Assembly: GCA_903891095.1 (NCBI GenBank)
Contig: CAITDI010000037.1
Span: 1-56,772, forward strand
Direction of reading: 5' to 3'
Length of the DNA: 56,772 nt
Source: an uncultured bacterium
GTDB taxonomy: Bacteria > Planctomycetota > Phycisphaerae > Phycisphaerales > SM1A02
This document shows positions 450 to 10,382 of the stretch, piece by piece. The notes under the pieces are model-generated. The model saw nothing but the letters and a program-made list of their open reading frames with translations, did no database searches and was not told the origin of the DNA. Position numbers and translations under genes: made by a program. Within the stretch, counting starts at the first letter, position 1, and the number at the start of each line of letters is the position of its first letter.

Positions 450-1700
450 ATGCCCAACTGGCACGACGTCTCCGTGTGGGAGCGGCTCGCGGCGATGCCC
501 GACGCGCAGGCCGCGGCGGCCGCGGTCGACTCGCGCGATGCGGCGAGCGTGGCGCGGCTTCGCAAGCGGTTCGACGCCGATGTCGTGGCGGCGGCGCTCG
601 AGCTTGCGGATGCGCGGCGCAAGGCCGGTGGGACCAGCGGCGGGGCGCCCGCGAAGTTCGCGCGCGCGGCCGAGCTCTGGTGCGATGTCCAGGGCGTCGA
701 GCAGGCGTCCGACGATGCGGTCGCGCGTTGGAAGGCGCAGCGCATGCGCGAGGTGCTCGGCGCGGGCGCGGAGATCTCCGACATCTGCTGCGGCATCGGC
801 GGCGACGCGATGGCGCTCGTCGCGGCGGGGCTTCGCGTGACCGCGATCGACCTCGACGCGCGCCGCGCGTGGATGGCCGCGCGCAACGCGGGCTGCGCGT
901 CGCGCGTGGCCGACGCGGAGTCGCTCGACCTCGCGGGCATCGCGCTGCACGCCGATCCCGCGCGGCGCGATGAGCGCGGCGGCACGCGCAGCTGGAACAT
1001 CGACGATCACCAGCCTGGTCGCGCGTGGATGGAGCGCGCGTTCACGCAGGCGCGCGCGGCGGCGATCAAGTTCTCGCCGGGCGTCGATCGCCGCGAGTTT
1101 GGCGCGCTGGTGGATCGACTCGGAGGGGCAGTTCGCGGCGCGGACATTCTCGAATGGGAGTTCATCGAGTCGCGCGGCACGCTCGTGCAAGCGGTCGCAT
1201 GGAGCGGCGCGTTTGCGCGCGATGCGGGCAAGACGCGTGCGACGGTGCTGCTCGCCGGCGGCGCTGCGCACACGATCGTCGGCATGCCCGACGACGCGCG
1301 CGCGGATCGTCTTGGCGCGTTCCGCGATCCGCGCGCGGGCGCGTTCCTGTGCGAGCCGACGCCTGCGCTCGAGCGCGCGCAGTTGCTGACCGAGGCCGCG
1401 CGCGGGTTCGACGCGTGCGAAGTCACGCGCGGCATGGGGCTGGTCGAGAGCACGGCGCCGATTGCGGGCCCGTGGTTCGAGAGCTTTGAGATCGTGTGCG
1501 AGTCGACGGTCCGCGCCGATGCGCTCGCCGCCGCGATGCGCGCGCATGGTCTCGCGCCGCGCAGTGTGCGCGTGCGCGGGAACGCAGCCGATGCCAACGC
1601 GATCACGCGTGCGCTCGGCTGCAATCCGAAGGGCGACGGCGTGGTGTTCGTGTGGCGTCAGGGCACGCGCGCGCGGGCGTTTGTGACGCGCGCGAGGTGA
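450..1700 (+). CDS. Class I SAM-dependent methyltransferase with THUMP-like domain
   Basis: Protein of 416 residues. Residues about 100-175 form a Rossmann methyltransferase core: the SAM-binding loop DICCGIGGDAMAL lies near 110-122, an acidic strand VTAIDLDARRA follows, and the signature ADPARR comes near 170. This matches the family of methyltransferases that carry a C-terminal THUMP-like domain. The C-terminal part ends with a strand-rich segment containing the GNAADANAITRALGC region. The substrate is unknown; a nucleic-acid base, probably in RNA, is an inference from the THUMP-like region. The start is the ATG at 450, which sits six bases after a -10-like hexamer. The gene stands alone and is followed by a repeat array. 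Confidence 0.75.
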   Translation: MPNWHDVSVWERLAAMPDAQAAAAAVDSRDAASVARLRKRFDADVVAAALELADARRKAGGTSGGAPAKFARAAELWCDVQGVEQASDDAVARWKAQRMREVLGAGAEISDICCGIGGDAMALVAAGLRVTAIDLDARRAWMAARNAGCASRVADAESLDLAGIALHADPARRDERGGTRSWNIDDHQPGRAWMERAFTQARAAAIKFSPGVDRREFGALVDRLGGAVRGADILEWEFIESRGTLVQAVAWSGAFARDAGKTRATVLLAGGAAHTIVGMPDDARADRLGAFRDPRAGAFLCEPTPALERAQLLTEAARGFDACEVTRGMGLVESTAPIAGPWFESFEIVCESTVRADALAAAMRAHGLAPRSVRVRGNAADANAITRALGCNPKGDGVVFVWRQGTRARAFVTRAR

Positions 1701-2009: not shown

Positions 2010-4994
2010 TCACGGTCCGCAGCCGCAGAACGCCTGCGCCAGCTGCACGCATGTCGTGTCCCACGCCGCTGTGCAGCACAACTCGTCGAACGAGCAGACC
2101 GTCGAGCAGCACGAGATGTCGTTGCAGAACGGCGTCGCATGCTCGTTGCAGCAGCTGCCCGCGGTTGGATCGCCGCAGGCGAGTCCGCCGCCGCACAGGC
2201 TGCATTCGGTGTTGGCGATGCCGGCACAGACCGCATCCCACACCGTGTTGCAGCAGGTCGGGTCGATGGCGCACACGTCGGTGCAGCACGTCTGGTCGTT
2301 GCAGTTGGCGTTGTTGTGCGGGAAGCAGCAGTTTCCAGCCTCGGGCGTGCCGCACTTCGGGTCGGGGCATGCCGTGTTGCAGGCGGGGTTGATGTTCGCC
2401 GCTGCAGCGCAGAACGCGTCCCACTCGGATTCGCAGCAGAAGATGTCGATCAGGCAGATCGCGTTGCAGCAGGTCTTGTCGTTGCACCACGGCGAGCGGT
2501 GCGGCTCGCAGCACGGACCCGCGCACGAGCCGCCGCAGTCGAACTGGTACGCCGCGCAGCCAGAGGTCGTGTACGAGCGCTGGGCGCAGGTCGCGTCCCA
2601 CTCGGTGTCGCAGCAGAACGAGTCAAGCGTGCAGATCGCCTGGCAGCACGTCTGGTCGGAGCATGCCGGCTTGTTGTGCGGGATGTTGCAGCTGGGGAGA
2701 CCGACGTCGCCGCAATCGGGCATCGCGGCGGCGCAGACCTTGCGCGCGTGCGCAGCGCACTCGGCGTCCCACGAGTTGAAGCAGCAGTACTCGAAGTCAG
2801 GATCCGCGCAGACGATCTTGCAGCAGCTGCCGTCGGCGCAGCCGGCGGTCGCGTGCTCGGCAAAGCAGTTGCCGCTCACGACCTGGCCGCAGCCGCCGTC
2901 GCAGGTGACAGACGCCGCAAGCACGCAGGACGAATCCCAGCGGACTTCGCAGCAGAACGGCTCGAAGCGGCAGACTGCCTCGCAGCACGCAGGATCGTTG
3001 CAGCTCGGCGAGGTGTGCGGCACGAGGCAGCTTCCCGCGCAGCTGTCGCCGCAACCGGGAACGCCACAGCACGTGAATCGCGCGATGGTCGCGCAGCCCG
3101 CGTCCCAGCTCTGCGTGCAGCACAGCGGGTCGACGTGGCAGACGCCTGCGCAGCAGACTTCATCGTCGCAGCCAGCGGTCTCGGCGTGCGACTCGAAGCA
3201 GCTTCCGCTGCAGGGGCAATCCCACGAGGCGAGCGGCACGCAGTTGTTCTTGGCGAGGTTGACGCAGGTCGTGTTCCACTGCACGTCGCAGCAGAGCGGG
3301 TCGACCGAGCAGACGACCGAGCAGCACGTCGCGTCGGAGCAGCCGGGGCTGAGGTGCGACTTATTGCAGGGCTCCGCGCCCGGGCAATCGCCGTAGCTCC
3401 AGCAGACGCCCTTGGCGAGGGTCACGCAGCGCTCGTTCCATCCGAAGGAGCAGCAGATCGGGTCGACCGAGCAGACGGCCGCGCAGCACTCGGGATCGGA
3501 GCAGCCGGGCTGCGCGTGGACGACGAGCGGCGAGCCGGCGCCTGGGCAGCCGTTGGGCTGCGCGCAGGTCACTCCCGCAGTCGCGGCGCAGGTTTCGTCC
3601 CACGCGCGCTGGCAGCAGGTCGGGTCGTAGACGCAGATCGTGAGGCAGCACTCCTGGTCCTCGCACGCGGGCAGGAAGCTCGCGATCGAGCACGGGCGCG
3701 TGCGCGGATCGCCGCAGGTGATGCCCGAGTCGACGCAGAGCGTGCCCGCGTTGAGCACGCAGAAGATGTCCCACTGCGTCACGCAGCAGAGCGGGTCCGC
3801 GTCGCACACGAGGCTGCAGCAGGCGCGGTCGAGGCAGCTCGGCGTGCCGTGCGGGTAGAAGCAGCTGCCCGCGGTGATCTCGCCGCAGCCGTTGCAGAGG
3901 ATGTTCGCGCGCGCGGCGCAGTTCGCGTCCCAGCGGCTTGCGGTCTGGTCGCAGCACAGCGGGTCAGAGGAGCACACCGACGCGCAGCACGCGGCGTCGG
4001 AGCAGCCAGGGCCCTGGTGTTCGACAAAGCAGCTGCCCGTCGCGGTCGAGCAGACGGCGTTGATCGCGGGATCCGGGCTCAGTGAGCAGATCGCCGCAGC
4101 GGCCTGCACGCAGGTGAAGTCCCAGCTCGCGCTGCAGCAGAAGTCGTCGAAGTAGCAGACGTCGTCGCAGCAGACGCGGTCGGAGCAACCGGGCTGCACG
4201 TGCACGACGCGGCAAAGGCGCGCCGAGGGATTCGCCGGATCGGTGTATCCGCACACGCGCTGGCAGAGACCGCAGGTCTGCGTGGCGGCTTCGGCGCACA
4301 TCGTGTCCCAGCGCGTCTCGCAGCAGAACGAGTCGAGCGCGCACACGCTCTCGCAGCAGACGCGGTCGTCGCAGTAGGCCGACGAGTGCTGGTGGCAGCA
4401 GCTGCCCGCGCGCGGATTGCCGCAGCTGAAGCAGTAGCGCGAGGCCCAGCCGACGCAGGTCTGGTCCCATGTCACGGTGCAGCAGGCGGGGTCGATGTCG
4501 CAGATGTTCGAGCAGCAGTTCGCGTCGGAGCAGTTGGGATTCTCATGCACCGTCAGGCAGGAGCCCGCGGCGGGCTCGCCGCAGGTGTCGGTGAGCTTGA
4601 TCGCCTCGTTCACGCAGTTCTGGTCCCACTGCAGGTTGCAGCAGTACTCGAAGCCCGGCGTGGAGCACACGGCCTCGCAGATCGCGCCGTTGTTGCACGA
4701 TGGCGTCTTGTGCGCCTCGAAGCAGCTCTCCGGGACCGCGCCGCAGCTCGAGCAGTACTTCTTGGCGAGCGCAACGCAGACGTCGTCCCACGCCACGTCG
4801 CAGCACGCGGGCTCGACGGTGCACACGAGACCGCAGCAGTCGGGGTTGTTGCAGCCCGGAGTCTTGAGGCTGGTCGTGAAGCAGCTGTTGACCGCGGTCG
4901 AGCACGATGCCTGTGCGTGCGCGCGGCCGGCCAGCAGCATCAGCGCCGCGGCAAGCAGGATGGAGAAGATCGCGATGGGGCTCGGGAGTCGCAT
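2010..4994 (-). CDS. Secreted protein of 17 Cys-rich tandem repeats
   Basis: Protein of 994 residues. Residues 1-28 are a classical Sec signal peptide ending in AHAQA. The rest is 17 consecutive repeats of about 45-62 residues with the pattern (S/N/P)C-x4-H-x2-(P/A)-x-C-x-D-x2-CC-x2-(V/I)C-x2-(D/E)-x2-CC-x4-WD-x2-C-x3-A-x4-C. Most repeats have eight or more cysteines in fixed positions plus invariant Trp-Asp. Repeat 2 has IC in place of the first CC pair and repeat 9 lacks the first Cys. Linkers between repeats often read CGxPxAG. The regular Cys pairing predicts a rod of disulfide-stabilised modules outside the cytoplasm. I know of no named domain that fits. The gene lies 53 bp downstream of the FG-GAP gene in the same direction, so the two may be co-expressed. 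The function is unknown; a surface or matrix role is an inference. Confidence 0.85.
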   Translation of the reverse strand: MRLPSPIAIFSILLAAALMLLAGRAHAQASCSTAVNSCFTTSLKTPGCNNPDCCGLVCTVEPACCDVAWDDVCVALAKKYCSSCGAVPESCFEAHKTPSCNNGAICEAVCSTPGFEYCCNLQWDQNCVNEAIKLTDTCGEPAAGSCLTVHENPNCSDANCCSNICDIDPACCTVTWDQTCVGWASRYCFSCGNPRAGSCCHQHSSAYCDDRVCCESVCALDSFCCETRWDTMCAEAATQTCGLCQRVCGYTDPANPSARLCRVVHVQPGCSDRVCCDDVCYFDDFCCSASWDFTCVQAAAAICSLSPDPAINAVCSTATGSCFVEHQGPGCSDAACCASVCSSDPLCCDQTASRWDANCAARANILCNGCGEITAGSCFYPHGTPSCLDRACCSLVCDADPLCCVTQWDIFCVLNAGTLCVDSGITCGDPRTRPCSIASFLPACEDQECCLTICVYDPTCCQRAWDETCAATAGVTCAQPNGCPGAGSPLVVHAQPGCSDPECCAAVCSVDPICCSFGWNERCVTLAKGVCWSYGDCPGAEPCNKSHLSPGCSDATCCSVVCSVDPLCCDVQWNTTCVNLAKNNCVPLASWDCPCSGSCFESHAETAGCDDEVCCAGVCHVDPLCCTQSWDAGCATIARFTCCGVPGCGDSCAGSCLVPHTSPSCNDPACCEAVCRFEPFCCEVRWDSSCVLAASVTCDGGCGQVVSGNCFAEHATAGCADGSCCKIVCADPDFEYCCFNSWDAECAAHARKVCAAAMPDCGDVGLPSCNIPHNKPACSDQTCCQAICTLDSFCCDTEWDATCAQRSYTTSGCAAYQFDCGGSCAGPCCEPHRSPWCNDKTCCNAICLIDIFCCESEWDAFCAAAANINPACNTACPDPKCGTPEAGNCCFPHNNANCNDQTCCTDVCAIDPTCCNTVWDAVCAGIANTECSLCGGGLACGDPTAGSCCNEHATPFCNDISCCSTVCSFDELCCTAAWDTTCVQLAQAFCGCGP

Positions 4995-5047: not shown

Positions 5048-7876
5048 TCAGGGGGTGGTCATCAGTCGCGCCTTGCCGGAATTGAGTCCGGTGACGTCGC
5101 TGAACGGCGCGCCGGTCAGCGAGAAGCCGCGGGTCGATGCGGCGCTGTAGCCGAACTGATCGCCCGTGGCGGGGTTGGTCGAGGCGCGGATCGCGGTGAG
5201 CACCGCTCCGGTCTGTCCGATGGTCTTGCGGAGCACATAGATCTTGCCGGCATCGGTGCGCACGCCGCCCGGCACCGTGAGGTCGGCCTTTGGTGCGCCG
5301 ACGACGACGGTGAATCCGTTGCCGTCCACCGCGGGCGCGATGCTGATCGAGGAGCCGAGCGCGTCGCCAGCGACGCCATCCGGGGCCTTGAAGGTTCCGC
5401 GGTACGCGTAGCTCGCGACGTTGGGAGTGATGACCGTGGTCGAGCGCTCCCAGAAGTGCACGACGCCCGCGCCATTCGACGCGCCAGGCGCGCCGACGGC
5501 GACGAGGTTGCCGCTGATCGCGACGGCGGTGCCGAACAGATCGCCCACCGCGAGCGCACCGCCGCCCGTCGGAGTGAGCGTGAATCCTGCAGTCGGGAAG
5601 GTTCCGACGCCGCCCGTTGCCGACGGCGGACGGTCGTACACGTACGCGCCGCCCTTGCCGCCATCGCGGCCAGGCGCGCCGACGACCATGATCACGCGCG
5701 AAGTCGGGCCGACAGGCAGGAACGGCTCCAGCGCAACTGCAGCGCCAAAGTTGTCGCCGTCGGTTGGAGTGCCGAGCAGCGCACGCGTGGTCTGCAGGCC
5801 AGCGCGCTCGACGCCGCCGACGAAGTAGTTGCGGATGATGTAGACCGCGCCGCGGCCGGCGTTTCGTCCTGGCGCGCCGACCACGATCTGATCGACGCCT
5901 TCGCGCGGGTTGCGGCCCATCGCGAGCGCGTAGCCGAACAGCGAGTAGTCGCGCGCCTGGAAGCCACCGGTCGCCGGCGGCGTGTAGCGCCACAGCTGGT
6001 TCCAGCCGTTGATGTCCTCGGCGAAGAGGTAGATCGCGCCCTTCGACGGGAAGGTCCCGACGGTCGCGGTCTCGGTCCAGCGGTAGGCGCCGACGAGTGC
6101 AAAGTTGCGCGCGGGGAACAGCGGAGTCACCAGGCTCTGCGCGCGCTTGTACACCGTCGCGCCGCGGCCGAAGAACGCATTCGCGAGCGGGTCCGCTGCG
6201 CGCAGGATGGCGAGCGGCGCGATCTGTCCATTGGCGATCGCGACGAGGTACGCGGCGCCTGCGTTGGACGCGCCGACATCGCTGCCGGGCGCGCCGATCA
6301 CGGCAATCGTGGTCGGGTCGCCGGACTTGGACGCGATGCCGACCGCGGAGCCGAGCGTGTCGAGCGTGGTCACGCCACCCGCGGCGAACTCGACGTCGGT
6401 GAGCGGGCACTCGTCGGGAATGCCGTCGTTGTTGAGGTCGAGGCTGATGCCGAGCGCGATGTCGCAGCTGTCGGGAATGCCCGTGAAGTTGCAGTCAGGA
6501 ACGATGTTGTTCGCGATCGCCTGTTCGTCAGGAACTCCGTCGCCGTCGCAGTCGATCGCAGCCGAGCTCGAGCAGCGGTAGTTCGCCACGATGTTCGCGG
6601 TGAGGCTCGCGGTGCGCGCGTTGTTGGCGGTGGCGGTGCCGGTCGGTTCCTGCAGCCACTGGACGAGCGGATTCGAGTAGACGGGCACGACCTCCGCCGT
6701 GCCGCTGGCCATGACCGTCTGGAACTGTGCAGCGCCAGCGGTGAACTCCCACGCGTGCGAGAACGCGTAGTAGCCGGTGCATGCGGGAGTCGCGCCGGTC
6801 TGCGAGCAGCAGCCCATGTTGGCGCCGAGGGCGCGCGCGGTGCTGATGTTCGGGGCGATGCCGCCGCTGCGGCCGATGACGCTGAACGCAGCCACATCGC
6901 CGTTGTCGATGCCGATGTACGCCGCGCTGCCGCTGGTCGCGGAGTCGGAGTAGAGCACGACGAGATCGGCGAGCTCGAGGTTGCGCTGGGCGTGGACCGC
7001 GTCGTTCCAGTTGTCGTTGGCGATGACGAGCTGGTTCAGGTCGGTCGTGAGCGAACCCGTGCCGTTGTCGGCGGTCTGGTAGAAGCCCGCGATGCGGAAA
7101 CGCGGCACCGCGTTCGAGTTCGCCAGCGCGGAGTTCGCGAGGCCGATGTCGGCGGTGAGCGCAGCCTGCAGGTCGGCGGGCGTTGCGAAGAGCGTCGCGA
7201 AGTTCGGCGTGTACGCGAGCAGCACGTCGATGATCTGGCCGGTGTCCTGGCAGTTGCCCGCGACGCCGCCTTCGCCGTTGGCCGCGAGGAGCGCCGCCGG
7301 CGGATCGATCGACTCGTGCACGCCGTCCGCGCCGTTGTCGCCGGCGGGGATGTCGTCGTAGTAGTCGCCCGCGAGGCCGTTCGCGTCGGTGCGGCTGGAA
7401 AGGCTCCACGCGAAGTGCTGCTTGCCGATGGTCACGCGCAGCGTGCCGCGCACGACGCCTTCACGCACGGTGATCTCGGCGGCGTTGCCGGCAGCGAGAT
7501 CGGCAAAGGTGAACTGGATCGAGCGCTCGTCGAGGAGCATGCGCTCGACGAGAGGCATCTCGATGCCGCTGCCGCCCGGAAGCATGAACACCATCGACTC
7601 GCCCGGCTGCAGCTGCGCCGCGCGCGCGGTCGGAAACGACCAGCGGCGGTCCGCGCCGGGAACGTTGTCCGTCTCCGCAAAGTGCATCGACTCGGTGAAG
7701 CCGCCATGAGAGCCAAGCTTGGCGAGCTGCGCGTCGAGTTTGCGGTTCGCGTTGGCGGCGTCGAAGCCGAGCATGCTCGGCATCGCAAACAGCAGGCCGG
7801 CGGTGACCACGCCAAGGCCCATCGTGGCGCGGAGCCCAGAATCGCGGAAGGCAGAGTCGCGGGGTGAGGTCGTCAT
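5048..7876 (-). CDS. Reprolysin-like protein with lost zinc site, plus FG-GAP repeats
   Basis: Exported protein of about 942 residues from the ATG at 7876. A hydrophobic signal segment lies near residues 17-40. Residues about 210-435 align by eye with reprolysin (M12B-type) metallopeptidases: the IIDVLLAYTP start, the ADLVVLYSDS strand, and a C-terminal VMASGTAEVVPVYSNP turn ending IVANYRC. The place where the family has HELGHNMGC reads RALGANMGC (about residues 347-355), so the zinc-binding histidines and catalytic Glu are missing. Next come thrombospondin-3-like calcium loops (DCDGDGVPDE, DLNNDGIPDEC), then several FG-GAP beta-propeller repeats with VIGAPGSD, VVGAPGRN and VAVGAPGA motifs to the C-terminus. 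A noncatalytic adhesion or binding role is an inference. The frame stays open further upstream, so the start is moderately uncertain. Confidence 0.8.
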   Translation of the reverse strand: MTTSPRDSAFRDSGLRATMGLGVVTAGLLFAMPSMLGFDAANANRKLDAQLAKLGSHGGFTESMHFAETDNVPGADRRWSFPTARAAQLQPGESMVFMLPGGSGIEMPLVERMLLDERSIQFTFADLAAGNAAEITVREGVVRGTLRVTIGKQHFAWSLSSRTDANGLAGDYYDDIPAGDNGADGVHESIDPPAALLAANGEGGVAGNCQDTGQIIDVLLAYTPNFATLFATPADLQAALTADIGLANSALANSNAVPRFRIAGFYQTADNGTGSLTTDLNQLVIANDNWNDAVHAQRNLELADLVVLYSDSATSGSAAYIGIDNGDVAAFSVIGRSGGIAPNISTARALGANMGCCSQTGATPACTGYYAFSHAWEFTAGAAQFQTVMASGTAEVVPVYSNPLVQWLQEPTGTATANNARTASLTANIVANYRCSSSAAIDCDGDGVPDEQAIANNIVPDCNFTGIPDSCDIALGISLDLNNDGIPDECPLTDVEFAAGGVTTLDTLGSAVGIASKSGDPTTIAVIGAPGSDVGASNAGAAYLVAIANGQIAPLAILRAADPLANAFFGRGATVYKRAQSLVTPLFPARNFALVGAYRWTETATVGTFPSKGAIYLFAEDINGWNQLWRYTPPATGGFQARDYSLFGYALAMGRNPREGVDQIVVGAPGRNAGRGAVYIIRNYFVGGVERAGLQTTRALLGTPTDGDNFGAAVALEPFLPVGPTSRVIMVVGAPGRDGGKGGAYVYDRPPSATGGVGTFPTAGFTLTPTGGGALAVGDLFGTAVAISGNLVAVGAPGASNGAGVVHFWERSTTVITPNVASYAYRGTFKAPDGVAGDALGSSISIAPAVDGNGFTVVVGAPKADLTVPGGVRTDAGKIYVLRKTIGQTGAVLTAIRASTNPATGDQFGYSAASTRGFSLTGAPFSDVTGLNSGKARLMTTP

Positions 7877-8222
7877 CGTTTGAGCTTCGGCAGGAACTTT
7901 CAGCAGTCGAGAAGGCACCATGGACGCTGGGGCGACTCGTCGTCGCGCCAAAGCCACTCCGCGGGGACAAGCCTCGCGATCGTTTCCCAGCGAGCCGCGA
8001 TGCGGATTCTCTTGCACGGCGGGCGCCGTCAGTCCGAGAGTCCATTCGGACGAGCGATCGCAACCGCACGCCTCAATCGCAGAGCCTGACATCATCCTCT
8101 CTACGCCCCACATTGCAAGCCAAGCGCAGGCTGTGGGCGGGATTCCGCAGGATTCCGAGGTCGGTCAGGGTGTCCAATCGGACGGTGCCTGACTGCGGCG
8201 GATTGCGGCCTTCGTCGATGCG
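7877..8222. other. 346-bp intergenic region, no gene seen
   Basis: Lies between the uppS stop and the start of the reprolysin-like gene, both on the minus strand, so it should hold the promoter of the latter. I see no convincing -35/-10 pair. A weak hairpin pairs GTCCGA (8032-8037) with TCGGAC (8046-8051). The open frames here have no recognisable family features. Confidence 0.5.
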
Positions 8223-9014
8223 TCAGTGCGGCGTTGAGGCATGCGCCGCGGGAGCGGCGGGGACCCCGCCAAAGCGCCGTTCGCGGGCCGAGAAGTCCGC
8301 CAGCGCGCGGTGCAGATCCGCGACCGTGAAGTCGGGCCAGAGCACGTCGGTCACGTGGATTTCCGCGTAGGAGATCTGCCACAGCAAGTAGTTGGACACG
8401 CGCATCTCGCCCGCCGTGCGGACGAGGAGGTCGGGGTCGGCGATCCCGGCGGTGTAGAGGTGCGCGGCGACGGCGGACTCGTCGATCGAGTCGAGCGACC
8501 GCTTGCCCGCGGCGACCTCGGCGGCGAGCGCCCGCGCAGCGTCGGCGATCTCGGTCCGAGAGCCGTAGTTCAAGGCAAGGCAGAGGGTTAGCCCAGTGAG
8601 GTGCGCGGTGGCACGCTCGGTCTCGTCGAGCTCGGCGAGGACCTCGGCGGGGAGTCCTTCGCGGCGACCGATGCGGCGGAAGCGGATGTTCTCACGCAGC
8701 ATCGTCGGCCGCTCGAGCCTGAGGAACTCGCAGCAGAGGAACATCAGCGCGGCGACCTCGTCGGCGGGGCGCTTCCAGTTCTCGCTGGAGAACGAGTACA
8801 GCGTGAGCGCGCCGAGCCCGAGACGGGCCGACTCGGTCACGATCCGACGGACCGTCTCGACGCCCTCGCGGTGACCAGCCGCGCGCGGAAGCCCGCGCGC
8901 CTGCGCCCATCGCCCGTTGCCATCCATGATGACCGCCACATGCCGCGGCCACCGCTCGCGCGGGATCGCGGCGAGCGGCGAGTCGGCAGGAAGGGCGGGC
9001 GCCGCGTTCGACAT
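8223..9014 (-). CDS. uppS: Isoprenyl transferase (undecaprenyl diphosphate synthase)
   Basis: Protein of 263 residues, the normal length for cis-prenyltransferases. It condenses isopentenyl diphosphate onto farnesyl diphosphate to make the C55 lipid carrier for cell-envelope polysaccharides. Diagnostic motifs are HVAVIMDGNGRWA near residues 25-37 (catalytic Asp in MDGN), the LYSFSSENWKRP segment, LALNYGSRTEI, and the C-terminal DLLVRTAGEMRVSNYLLWQ and AEIHVTDVLWPDF motifs. It starts 12 bp after the purA stop on the same strand, so the two are probably co-transcribed. The acceptor chain length cannot be read from the sequence. Confidence 0.95.
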   Translation of the reverse strand: MSNAAPALPADSPLAAIPRERWPRHVAVIMDGNGRWAQARGLPRAAGHREGVETVRRIVTESARLGLGALTLYSFSSENWKRPADEVAALMFLCCEFLRLERPTMLRENIRFRRIGRREGLPAEVLAELDETERATAHLTGLTLCLALNYGSRTEIADAARALAAEVAAGKRSLDSIDESAVAAHLYTAGIADPDLLVRTAGEMRVSNYLLWQISYAEIHVTDVLWPDFTVADLHRALADFSARERRFGGVPAAPAAHASTPH

Positions 9015-9026
9015 CGCACAGACTCG

Positions 9027-10382
<1,356 letters not shown>

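Follow-up and report, generated by a model that had tools for sequence, protein, structure and literature searches.

The gene at positions 2010 to 4994 of contig CAITDI010000037.1, an uncultured Phycisphaerales planctomycete sequence whose full 56,772 nucleotides we call the window, encodes a protein composed of a signal-peptide-like leader, a few further residues, and then 17 tandem cysteine-rich modules of approximately 55 amino acids, with nothing beyond them. Judged by its sequence, the module is a real ten-cysteine domain that is unnamed in the libraries searched, and it deserves a family entry of its own.

The seventeen modules of the window protein

Cysteine makes up 179 of the 994 residues (18%) of the window protein. 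The initial annotation described the protein as 17 tandem Cys-rich modules, each with two CC pairs and a WD, and the number holds. A profile built without the window protein recovers all 17 modules at 40.6-63.1 bits, and it matches no module in 200 residue shuffles of the protein. At the DNA level, the motif gives 10 matches in the window and 0 in 100 shuffles. The proposed pattern is not quite invariant, however, because the second CC pair is present in 17 of 17 modules, but the first in 16 (module 2 reads IC) and W-D in 15, with W-N in modules 9 and 10. The W-D and W-N dipeptides of the protein number 18, one of which, at residue 591, sits in the tail of module 10. Further single cysteines at fixed spacing had also been proposed, and each module does have ten positions with invariant or mostly present cysteines, although module 9 lacks the first.

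The majority consensus of 428 modules is G-x-C-x3-H-x2-P-G-C-x-D-x2-C-C-x2-V-C-x2-D-P-x-C-C-x3-W-D-x2-C-x3-A-x3-C-x3-C. Trp is found in 427 of these modules, and a His lies between the first and second cysteines (C1 and C2) in 258 of them, as well as in 464 of 754 modules in a larger set. Apart from the Cys, W, D, A, H and G/P columns, the 428 modules are variable. By inspection, a putative signal peptide, MRLPSPIAIFSILLAAALMLLAGRAHA/QA, is located at the N terminus, where the 15-residue hydropathy reaches 2.91 versus no more than 1.67 across the rest of the protein. This leader sequence suggests that the protein is probably secreted.

Comparison with known domains

The initial annotation could not assign the module to a named domain, and our profile searches of Pfam, NCBIfam and the PDB likewise revealed no such domain. 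The full protein matches 0 families at E<=1 among the 24736 models of Pfam-A or the 18950 models of NCBIfam. The single modules were taken from alignment A2, whose 136 rows comprise 11 of the 17 window modules and 125 of 130 diverse modules picked from 144 near-full-length ones of loci L065-L180. Searched one at a time against Pfam-A, these 136 modules give five unrelated families with one module each (best E 0.059, a chance-level value), and against NCBIfam they give seven unrelated families, again with one module each (best E 0.023). A PDB search with profiles of 17 and 136 modules yields best E-values of 0.53 and 0.73, from a 17-residue aldolase match. Specifically, the granulin model PF00396 matches neither the full protein nor any of the 136 single modules. 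Literature on this module was not found among open-licence papers, judged by titles and the starts of abstracts.

Several known systems resemble the module in part. Fungal hydrophobins have two CC pairs, and plant 8-Cys lipid-transfer proteins have a CC within a helical disulfide core. The planctomycete module differs in having ten cysteines in the order C-C-CC-C-CC-C-C-C, and it has no Pfam match to either group. The metzincins of the ADAM and ADAMTS types carry ancillary Cys-rich domains. Modules are similarly attached to, or encoded beside, metzincin-like proteins (L190 and the neighbouring gene described below), but there is no profile or fold match and the window array has no peptidase. 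Granulins carry CC pairs in each module, more than are present here, and adopt a stacked beta-hairpin fold. Granulin and progranulin, as presented in the accessible part of PMC4527844, share with the window protein the layout of a secreted chain of small Cys-rich modules, whereas AlphaFold2 gives helices for the planctomycete module, and granulins belong to animals rather than bacteria. The SCREPs, according to the accessible part of PMC6262176, are multi-domain secreted proteins built of Cys-rich repeats, but they are described there from venom peptides, and the likeness drawn here is one of concept. In other words, tandem Cys-rich extracellular modules are a kind of protein already known, and it is the domain itself that is absent from the libraries searched.

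Disulfide pattern and predicted structure

Cysteines that are partners in a disulfide bond would be expected to be lost together. We therefore counted cysteine losses in 754 unique modules out of 776, with identical ones counted once; the same trend had first been seen in 427 unique modules. Of the 21 modules missing C5, C7 or both, 19 have lost the two together (Fisher 1.3e-35; 18 different open reading frames, ORFs). All 12 modules without C2 also lack C1 (7e-20; 12 ORFs), and C1 is lost alone in 12 more. C3 and C9 are lost together in 12 modules (1.7e-9; 10 ORFs) and singly in 13 and 33. Because the rows are related to one another, these p-values overstate their independence. The paired losses support a consistent disulfide pattern of C5-C7, C1-C2 and, less strongly, C3-C9, or three of five possible bonds.

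The remaining cysteines are less readily paired. The near-constant presence of C6 and C8 would fit a bond between them, and C4-C10 is then a guess. Joint loss of C3 and C4 affects 16 modules, and some of these resemble a subtype that has a Cys two columns further along. When an extra Cys is present at column 3, next to C1, an extra tail Cys accompanies it in 64 of 66 modules, versus 53 of 354 among other modules. This association suggests a further bond between the two extra residues.

AlphaFold2 was run with module 12 as the query and 136 alignment rows, which gave a predicted local distance difference test (pLDDT) score of 85.9 and a predicted template modelling (pTM) score of 0.68. The model contains helices at residues 15-24, 27-30 and 35-44, with isolated bridge residues at 7 (His) and 33 (Trp). 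A second run, on modules 3-5 with 144 of 163 triplets as rows (alignment A3), produced the identical three-helix pattern in each of the three consecutive modules (pLDDT 88.2, pTM 0.61). The module therefore behaves as an independent unit, with the same predicted helices alone and in tandem and with different architectures in the genome. A Foldseek search of the PDB gave one match at E 9.7 for the single module and none for the triple, although small Cys-rich folds are hard for this program. The VIA structure search found no match, and Foldseek of the triple against viral models reached only E 0.9-1.2.

Distribution of the module

The module was proposed to be particular to Planctomycetota. The direction of this claim is right but its range is too wide: among the sampled genomes, almost all occurrences fall within a single family of Phycisphaerales-type planctomycetes, probably the GTDB family SM1A02. 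The module profile (E<=0.001) is positive in 163 of 181 genomes of this family, including 93 of 104 of high quality, and in 43 of 45 genera. In a sample of the phylum, 0 of 382 genomes outside the family have the module, and the 8 positives all fall among the 10 family members. In a sample of the order, a wider profile (E<=0.01) is positive in 158 of 170 family genomes and in 2 of 230 others, as counted from row order with family genomes coming first.

A degenerate DNA pattern, which provides no census, retrieved at least 116 stretches. Among the matches listed, the profile confirms the module in 115 of 116 loci (L157 lacks it). The records among these matches are mostly metagenome-assembled genomes of Phycisphaerales, Phycisphaerae and other Planctomycetota; some are named only 'bacterium' and a few carry other names. 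One record in the list, L147, is titled Limnohabitans. Presence outside the planctomycetes was considered for L067 (Wenzhouxiangella) and L137 (a proteobacterium), each with one module match per whole bin, and we take both to be mis-binned, which is unproven. The phage records searched contain no module, and eukaryotes were covered through solved structures only. Separately, a contig from IMG/VR of 61750 bases that is classed as viral (L219) encodes one module in a 3128-residue ORF with other Cys-rich stretches. It may derive from a virus of the planctomycete family, or it may be mis-classed bacterial DNA.

A long array with a near-constant number of modules

With a match at E<=1e-60 as the criterion, the long array is present in 71 of 181 family genomes, 48 of 104 high-quality genomes and 15 of 45 genera. 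The 74 matches include several fragments. From these matches we took 20 long arrays, chosen for match length and for spread over 14 genera. There are 17 modules in 14 of these arrays (eight genera), 18 in three, 19 in two and 16 in one. The loci contain 85 closed module ORFs in all, of which 79 have 1-4 modules or, once, 7, while the remaining six have 17-19. For this reason, the long form is a class of its own.

The order of the modules is also maintained. We compared the 19 distinct arrays that have exactly 17 modules, excluding those with 16, 18 or 19. The register that aligns each module with its counterpart of the same number is best in 171 of 171 pairs. For individual modules, the best match lies at the corresponding position in 3785 of 5814 cases (65%), versus 1 in 17 (6%) by chance. 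Mean same-position identity per array pair ranges from 43% to 81%, and thus the module count has been kept over wide divergence. The fraction of same-position best matches, in a tally that counts one array twice, is 0.88, 0.99 and 0.79 for modules 10, 11 and 12, and 0.28 and 0.27 for modules 2 and 13. Conservation peaks at position 11, with a mean identity of 0.55 among distant pairs versus 0.42 for unmatched positions. The flanks of the arrays vary. In the genus of the window the protein is a leader followed by modules alone, and in many other genera there are, by eye, N-terminal dockerin-like and further domains, with C-terminal extensions in some.

Other module proteins of the same genome

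The genome that contains the window has 39 modules by profile, of which 17 are in the window protein, and 13 other ORFs carry 1-4 each. Hydrophobic leader-like segments are visible by eye in these 13 ORFs. Ten of them were scanned with Pfam, and the domains above cut-off, in one protein each, are M12 (L190) and S8 (L193) peptidases, RCC1, a C-type lectin and GBD_T9SS_assoc. Such extracellular-type domains suggest that the module is used as a mobile extracellular building block.

A dockerin-like EF pair, recognized by eye, ends 12 of the 13 ORFs (L188 to L198). Dockerin_1 matches 10 of the 13 at E<=0.01 and exceeds its curated cut-off in two. The dockerin_GC model (NF041540) matches two of the ten scanned, L196 at 28.6 bits and L192 at 23.4 bits, both below the cut-off of 29, and it has matches in 175 of 181 family genomes. 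These module proteins end with an EF pair similar to that of GC-type dockerin-anchored proteins. The window protein, in contrast, ends with module 17 and has no NF041540 match, and the dockerin is a companion domain that belongs to another family.

Neighbouring genes

The initial annotation noted that the gene follows another unusual surface protein, and the upstream neighbour is indeed a protein of surface type with FG-GAP_2 repeats (Table 1). It gives a match to the Mep72 model at E 8.6e-4, which is far below the cut-off. Of the 20 array loci, 9 encode an FG-GAP protein of this type (two of these matches are weak). The uppS gene is encoded upstream of the array on the same strand in 18 of the 20 loci; in some of these it adjoins the array, and in the rest an FG-GAP-type gene intervenes. 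This position is at most suggestive of a link to envelope building. The purA gene is near the array in 17 of 20 loci, and 6 of 20 have the methyltransferase-like gene beside it.

The stretch that separates the array gene from the methyltransferase-like gene, at positions 1735-1979 of the window, contains tandem repeats (periods of 89 and 17 bases) as well as the palindrome CCGCAGGCNTCCGCCNGCGGG in three copies. These elements are perhaps a terminator or a mobile repeat.

Table 1. Coordinates of the array gene, its modules and the neighbouring genes in the window
Feature	Coordinates	Strand	Remarks
Array gene, coding sequence, 994 residues	2010..4994	-	Signal-peptide-like start and 17 tandem 10-Cys modules; ATG start; stop codon 2010-2012
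Putative Sec signal peptide	4914..4994	-	Residues 1-27 (AHA/QA); read from sequence and hydropathy
Module 1	4731..4889	-	
Module 2	4566..4730	-	Lacks C3 and C9 together
Module 3	4407..4565	-	In AlphaFold2 triple
Module 4	4221..4406	-	In AlphaFold2 triple
Module 5	4038..4220	-	In AlphaFold2 triple
Module 6	3870..4037	-	3-residue insertion before W
Module 7	3699..3869	-	
Module 8	3537..3698	-	
Module 9	3375..3536	-	Lacks C1; WN
Module 10	3207..3374	-	WN; tail W-x-C-P-C
Module 11	3036..3206	-	Most position-specific; tail CCG..GCG..C
Module 12	2874..3035	-	AlphaFold2 single-module query
Module 13	2697..2873	-	
Module 14	2520..2696	-	
Module 15	2337..2519	-	
Module 16	2160..2336	-	
Module 17	2013..2159	-	End of the protein
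FG-GAP-repeat protein	5048..8113	-	Upstream neighbour; weakly metzincin-like, no HExxH; ORF from first ATG, true start may be further in
uppS, undecaprenyl diphosphate synthase	8223..9014	-	Conserved upstream neighbour; PF01255, E 9.6e-79
purA, adenylosuccinate synthetase	9027..10382	-	PF00709, E 6.7e-167
Methyltransferase-like gene	450..1700	+	Convergent on the 3' side; sub-threshold Pfam hits only

Possible functions of the array

We favour, with about even confidence, a reading in which the window protein is a disulfide-stiffened extracellular rod or spacer built of mobile 10-Cys modules. The mini-domain, mainly helical and disulfide-bonded, would serve one planctomycete family as a mobile extracellular building block, and the window gene would encode its long form, exported by the Sec route. 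Each of the 17 modules would fold separately, with about five disulfides to secure it, and together they would form a stiff, protease-resistant rod or spacer of set length that is extracellular or associated with the envelope. This reading is favoured because of the leader, the repeated independent fold, the near-constant number of modules and their constant order. A constant number points either to a selected length or to individually specialised modules. We infer export from the leader; the oxidation of the cysteines, the stiffness of the array, its surface location and length as a selected trait are likewise inferred. A disulfide-bonded extracellular rod had already been suggested in the initial annotation; the disulfides are now supported for three bonds by the paired losses, and the rod is still a matter of interpretation.

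A number of observations weigh against this reading. An anchor or sorting signal was not seen in the window protein, and the pTM of 0.61 for the triple leaves the relative orientation of the modules, and hence the stiffness, uncertain. No constant partner accompanies the loss of C4, which is missing from 60 of 754 modules, and pairing is supported for no more than the three bonds named above. The module count is not strictly fixed, given that it varies from 16 to 19, and 110 of the 181 family genomes, some of them incomplete, have no long-array match. The link to uppS is loosened by the FG-GAP-type gene that separates it from the array in the genus of the window and some relatives, and 2 of the 20 loci showed no uppS in the vicinity of the array. 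Finally, DsbA (PF01323), Thioredoxin_4 (PF13462), DsbB (PF02600) and VKOR (PF07884) are all unmatched in the genome of the window, which is 98.6% complete and encodes many Cys-rich, probably secreted proteins. Among 14 control genomes, the same models match in 8, 9, 6 and 3, respectively, and VKOR is matched in 38 of 101 family genomes, with that of the window not among them. Either another oxidase acts, or oxidation occurs outside the cell, or not all of the cysteines are oxidised.

The alternative that survives best, possible though on the unlikely side, is a multivalent adhesin. Each module would bind a glycan or protein on particles, algae or the matrix of the organism itself, the array would provide avidity, and the near-constant length would be a by-product of specialised modules. 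Elsewhere in the genome, single modules adjoin lectin, peptidase and GBD-like domains, which is consistent with this view, as is the greater position specificity of modules 10, 11 and 12 relative to most. However, the module is variable outside its Cys, W, D, A, H and G/P columns, and known binding folds are unmatched.

The rod or spacer can also be extended to a bolder scenario, which we regard as unlikely. A new small disulfide fold would have arisen in the family, and a surface rod of about 17 modules would have been built before many of the genera split. This rod, encoded beside the lipid-carrier synthase UppS, would keep its length and module order because it acts as a ruler for the envelope, and it would be oxidised by a pathway other than DsbA/DsbB or VKOR.

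It is improbable that the array works together with the metzincin-like protein encoded next to it. In this reading, the array would have evolved beside a secreted zinc peptidase, which it would inhibit or otherwise control, or of which it would be a partner or a processed substrate. Relatives of the FG-GAP protein do have HExxH in 5 of 8 loci inspected (L201-L205, as HE[LVF]GH), and the module proteins L190 and L193 contain peptidases. Nevertheless, the zinc motif is gone in the window copy, L199, L200 and L081, yet the array is kept, and an FG-GAP homolog was not found in 11 of 20 array loci (L208-L218). Because HExxH is present in relatives and absent from the window copy, the latter may be a pseudopeptidase.

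Metal binding or storage, with Cys and His as ligands, is very improbable. The cysteine content of 18% and the frequent His between C1 and C2 would suit such a role, but cysteines are lost as discrete pairs rather than as whole ligand sets, the protein has a signal-peptide-like start, and the His is absent in about 4 of 10 modules. Least probable of all is a scaffoldin-like scaffold whose modules, in place of cohesins, receive the dockerin-like C termini of secreted proteins: despite the abundance of these termini among the 13 other module ORFs and of dockerin_GC in the family, we reject it as the main explanation because the two do not occur in step. Three genomes (G423, G531 and G418) have 29-31 dockerin matches and zero module matches, five (G360, G490, G498, G499 and G486) have 10-13 module matches and zero dockerin matches, a dockerin-like end is found by a simple pattern in only 26 of 85 closed module ORFs across all loci, and single modules also occur inside dockerin proteins.

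Implications for the planctomycete family

The module is a definable domain and a marker for the planctomycete family that carries it. With five bonds in each of 17 modules, up to approximately 85 disulfides per molecule would have to form, and the puzzle is that this genome has no match to the common enzymes of oxidative folding. Animal extracellular proteins are the best-known setting for tandem arrays of disulfide-rich modules. In the present case, a single bacterial family has a disulfide module of its own, together with a long array of 16-19 modules, mostly 17, in 14 genera, and the use of this array may be to provide a stable protein rod of set length.

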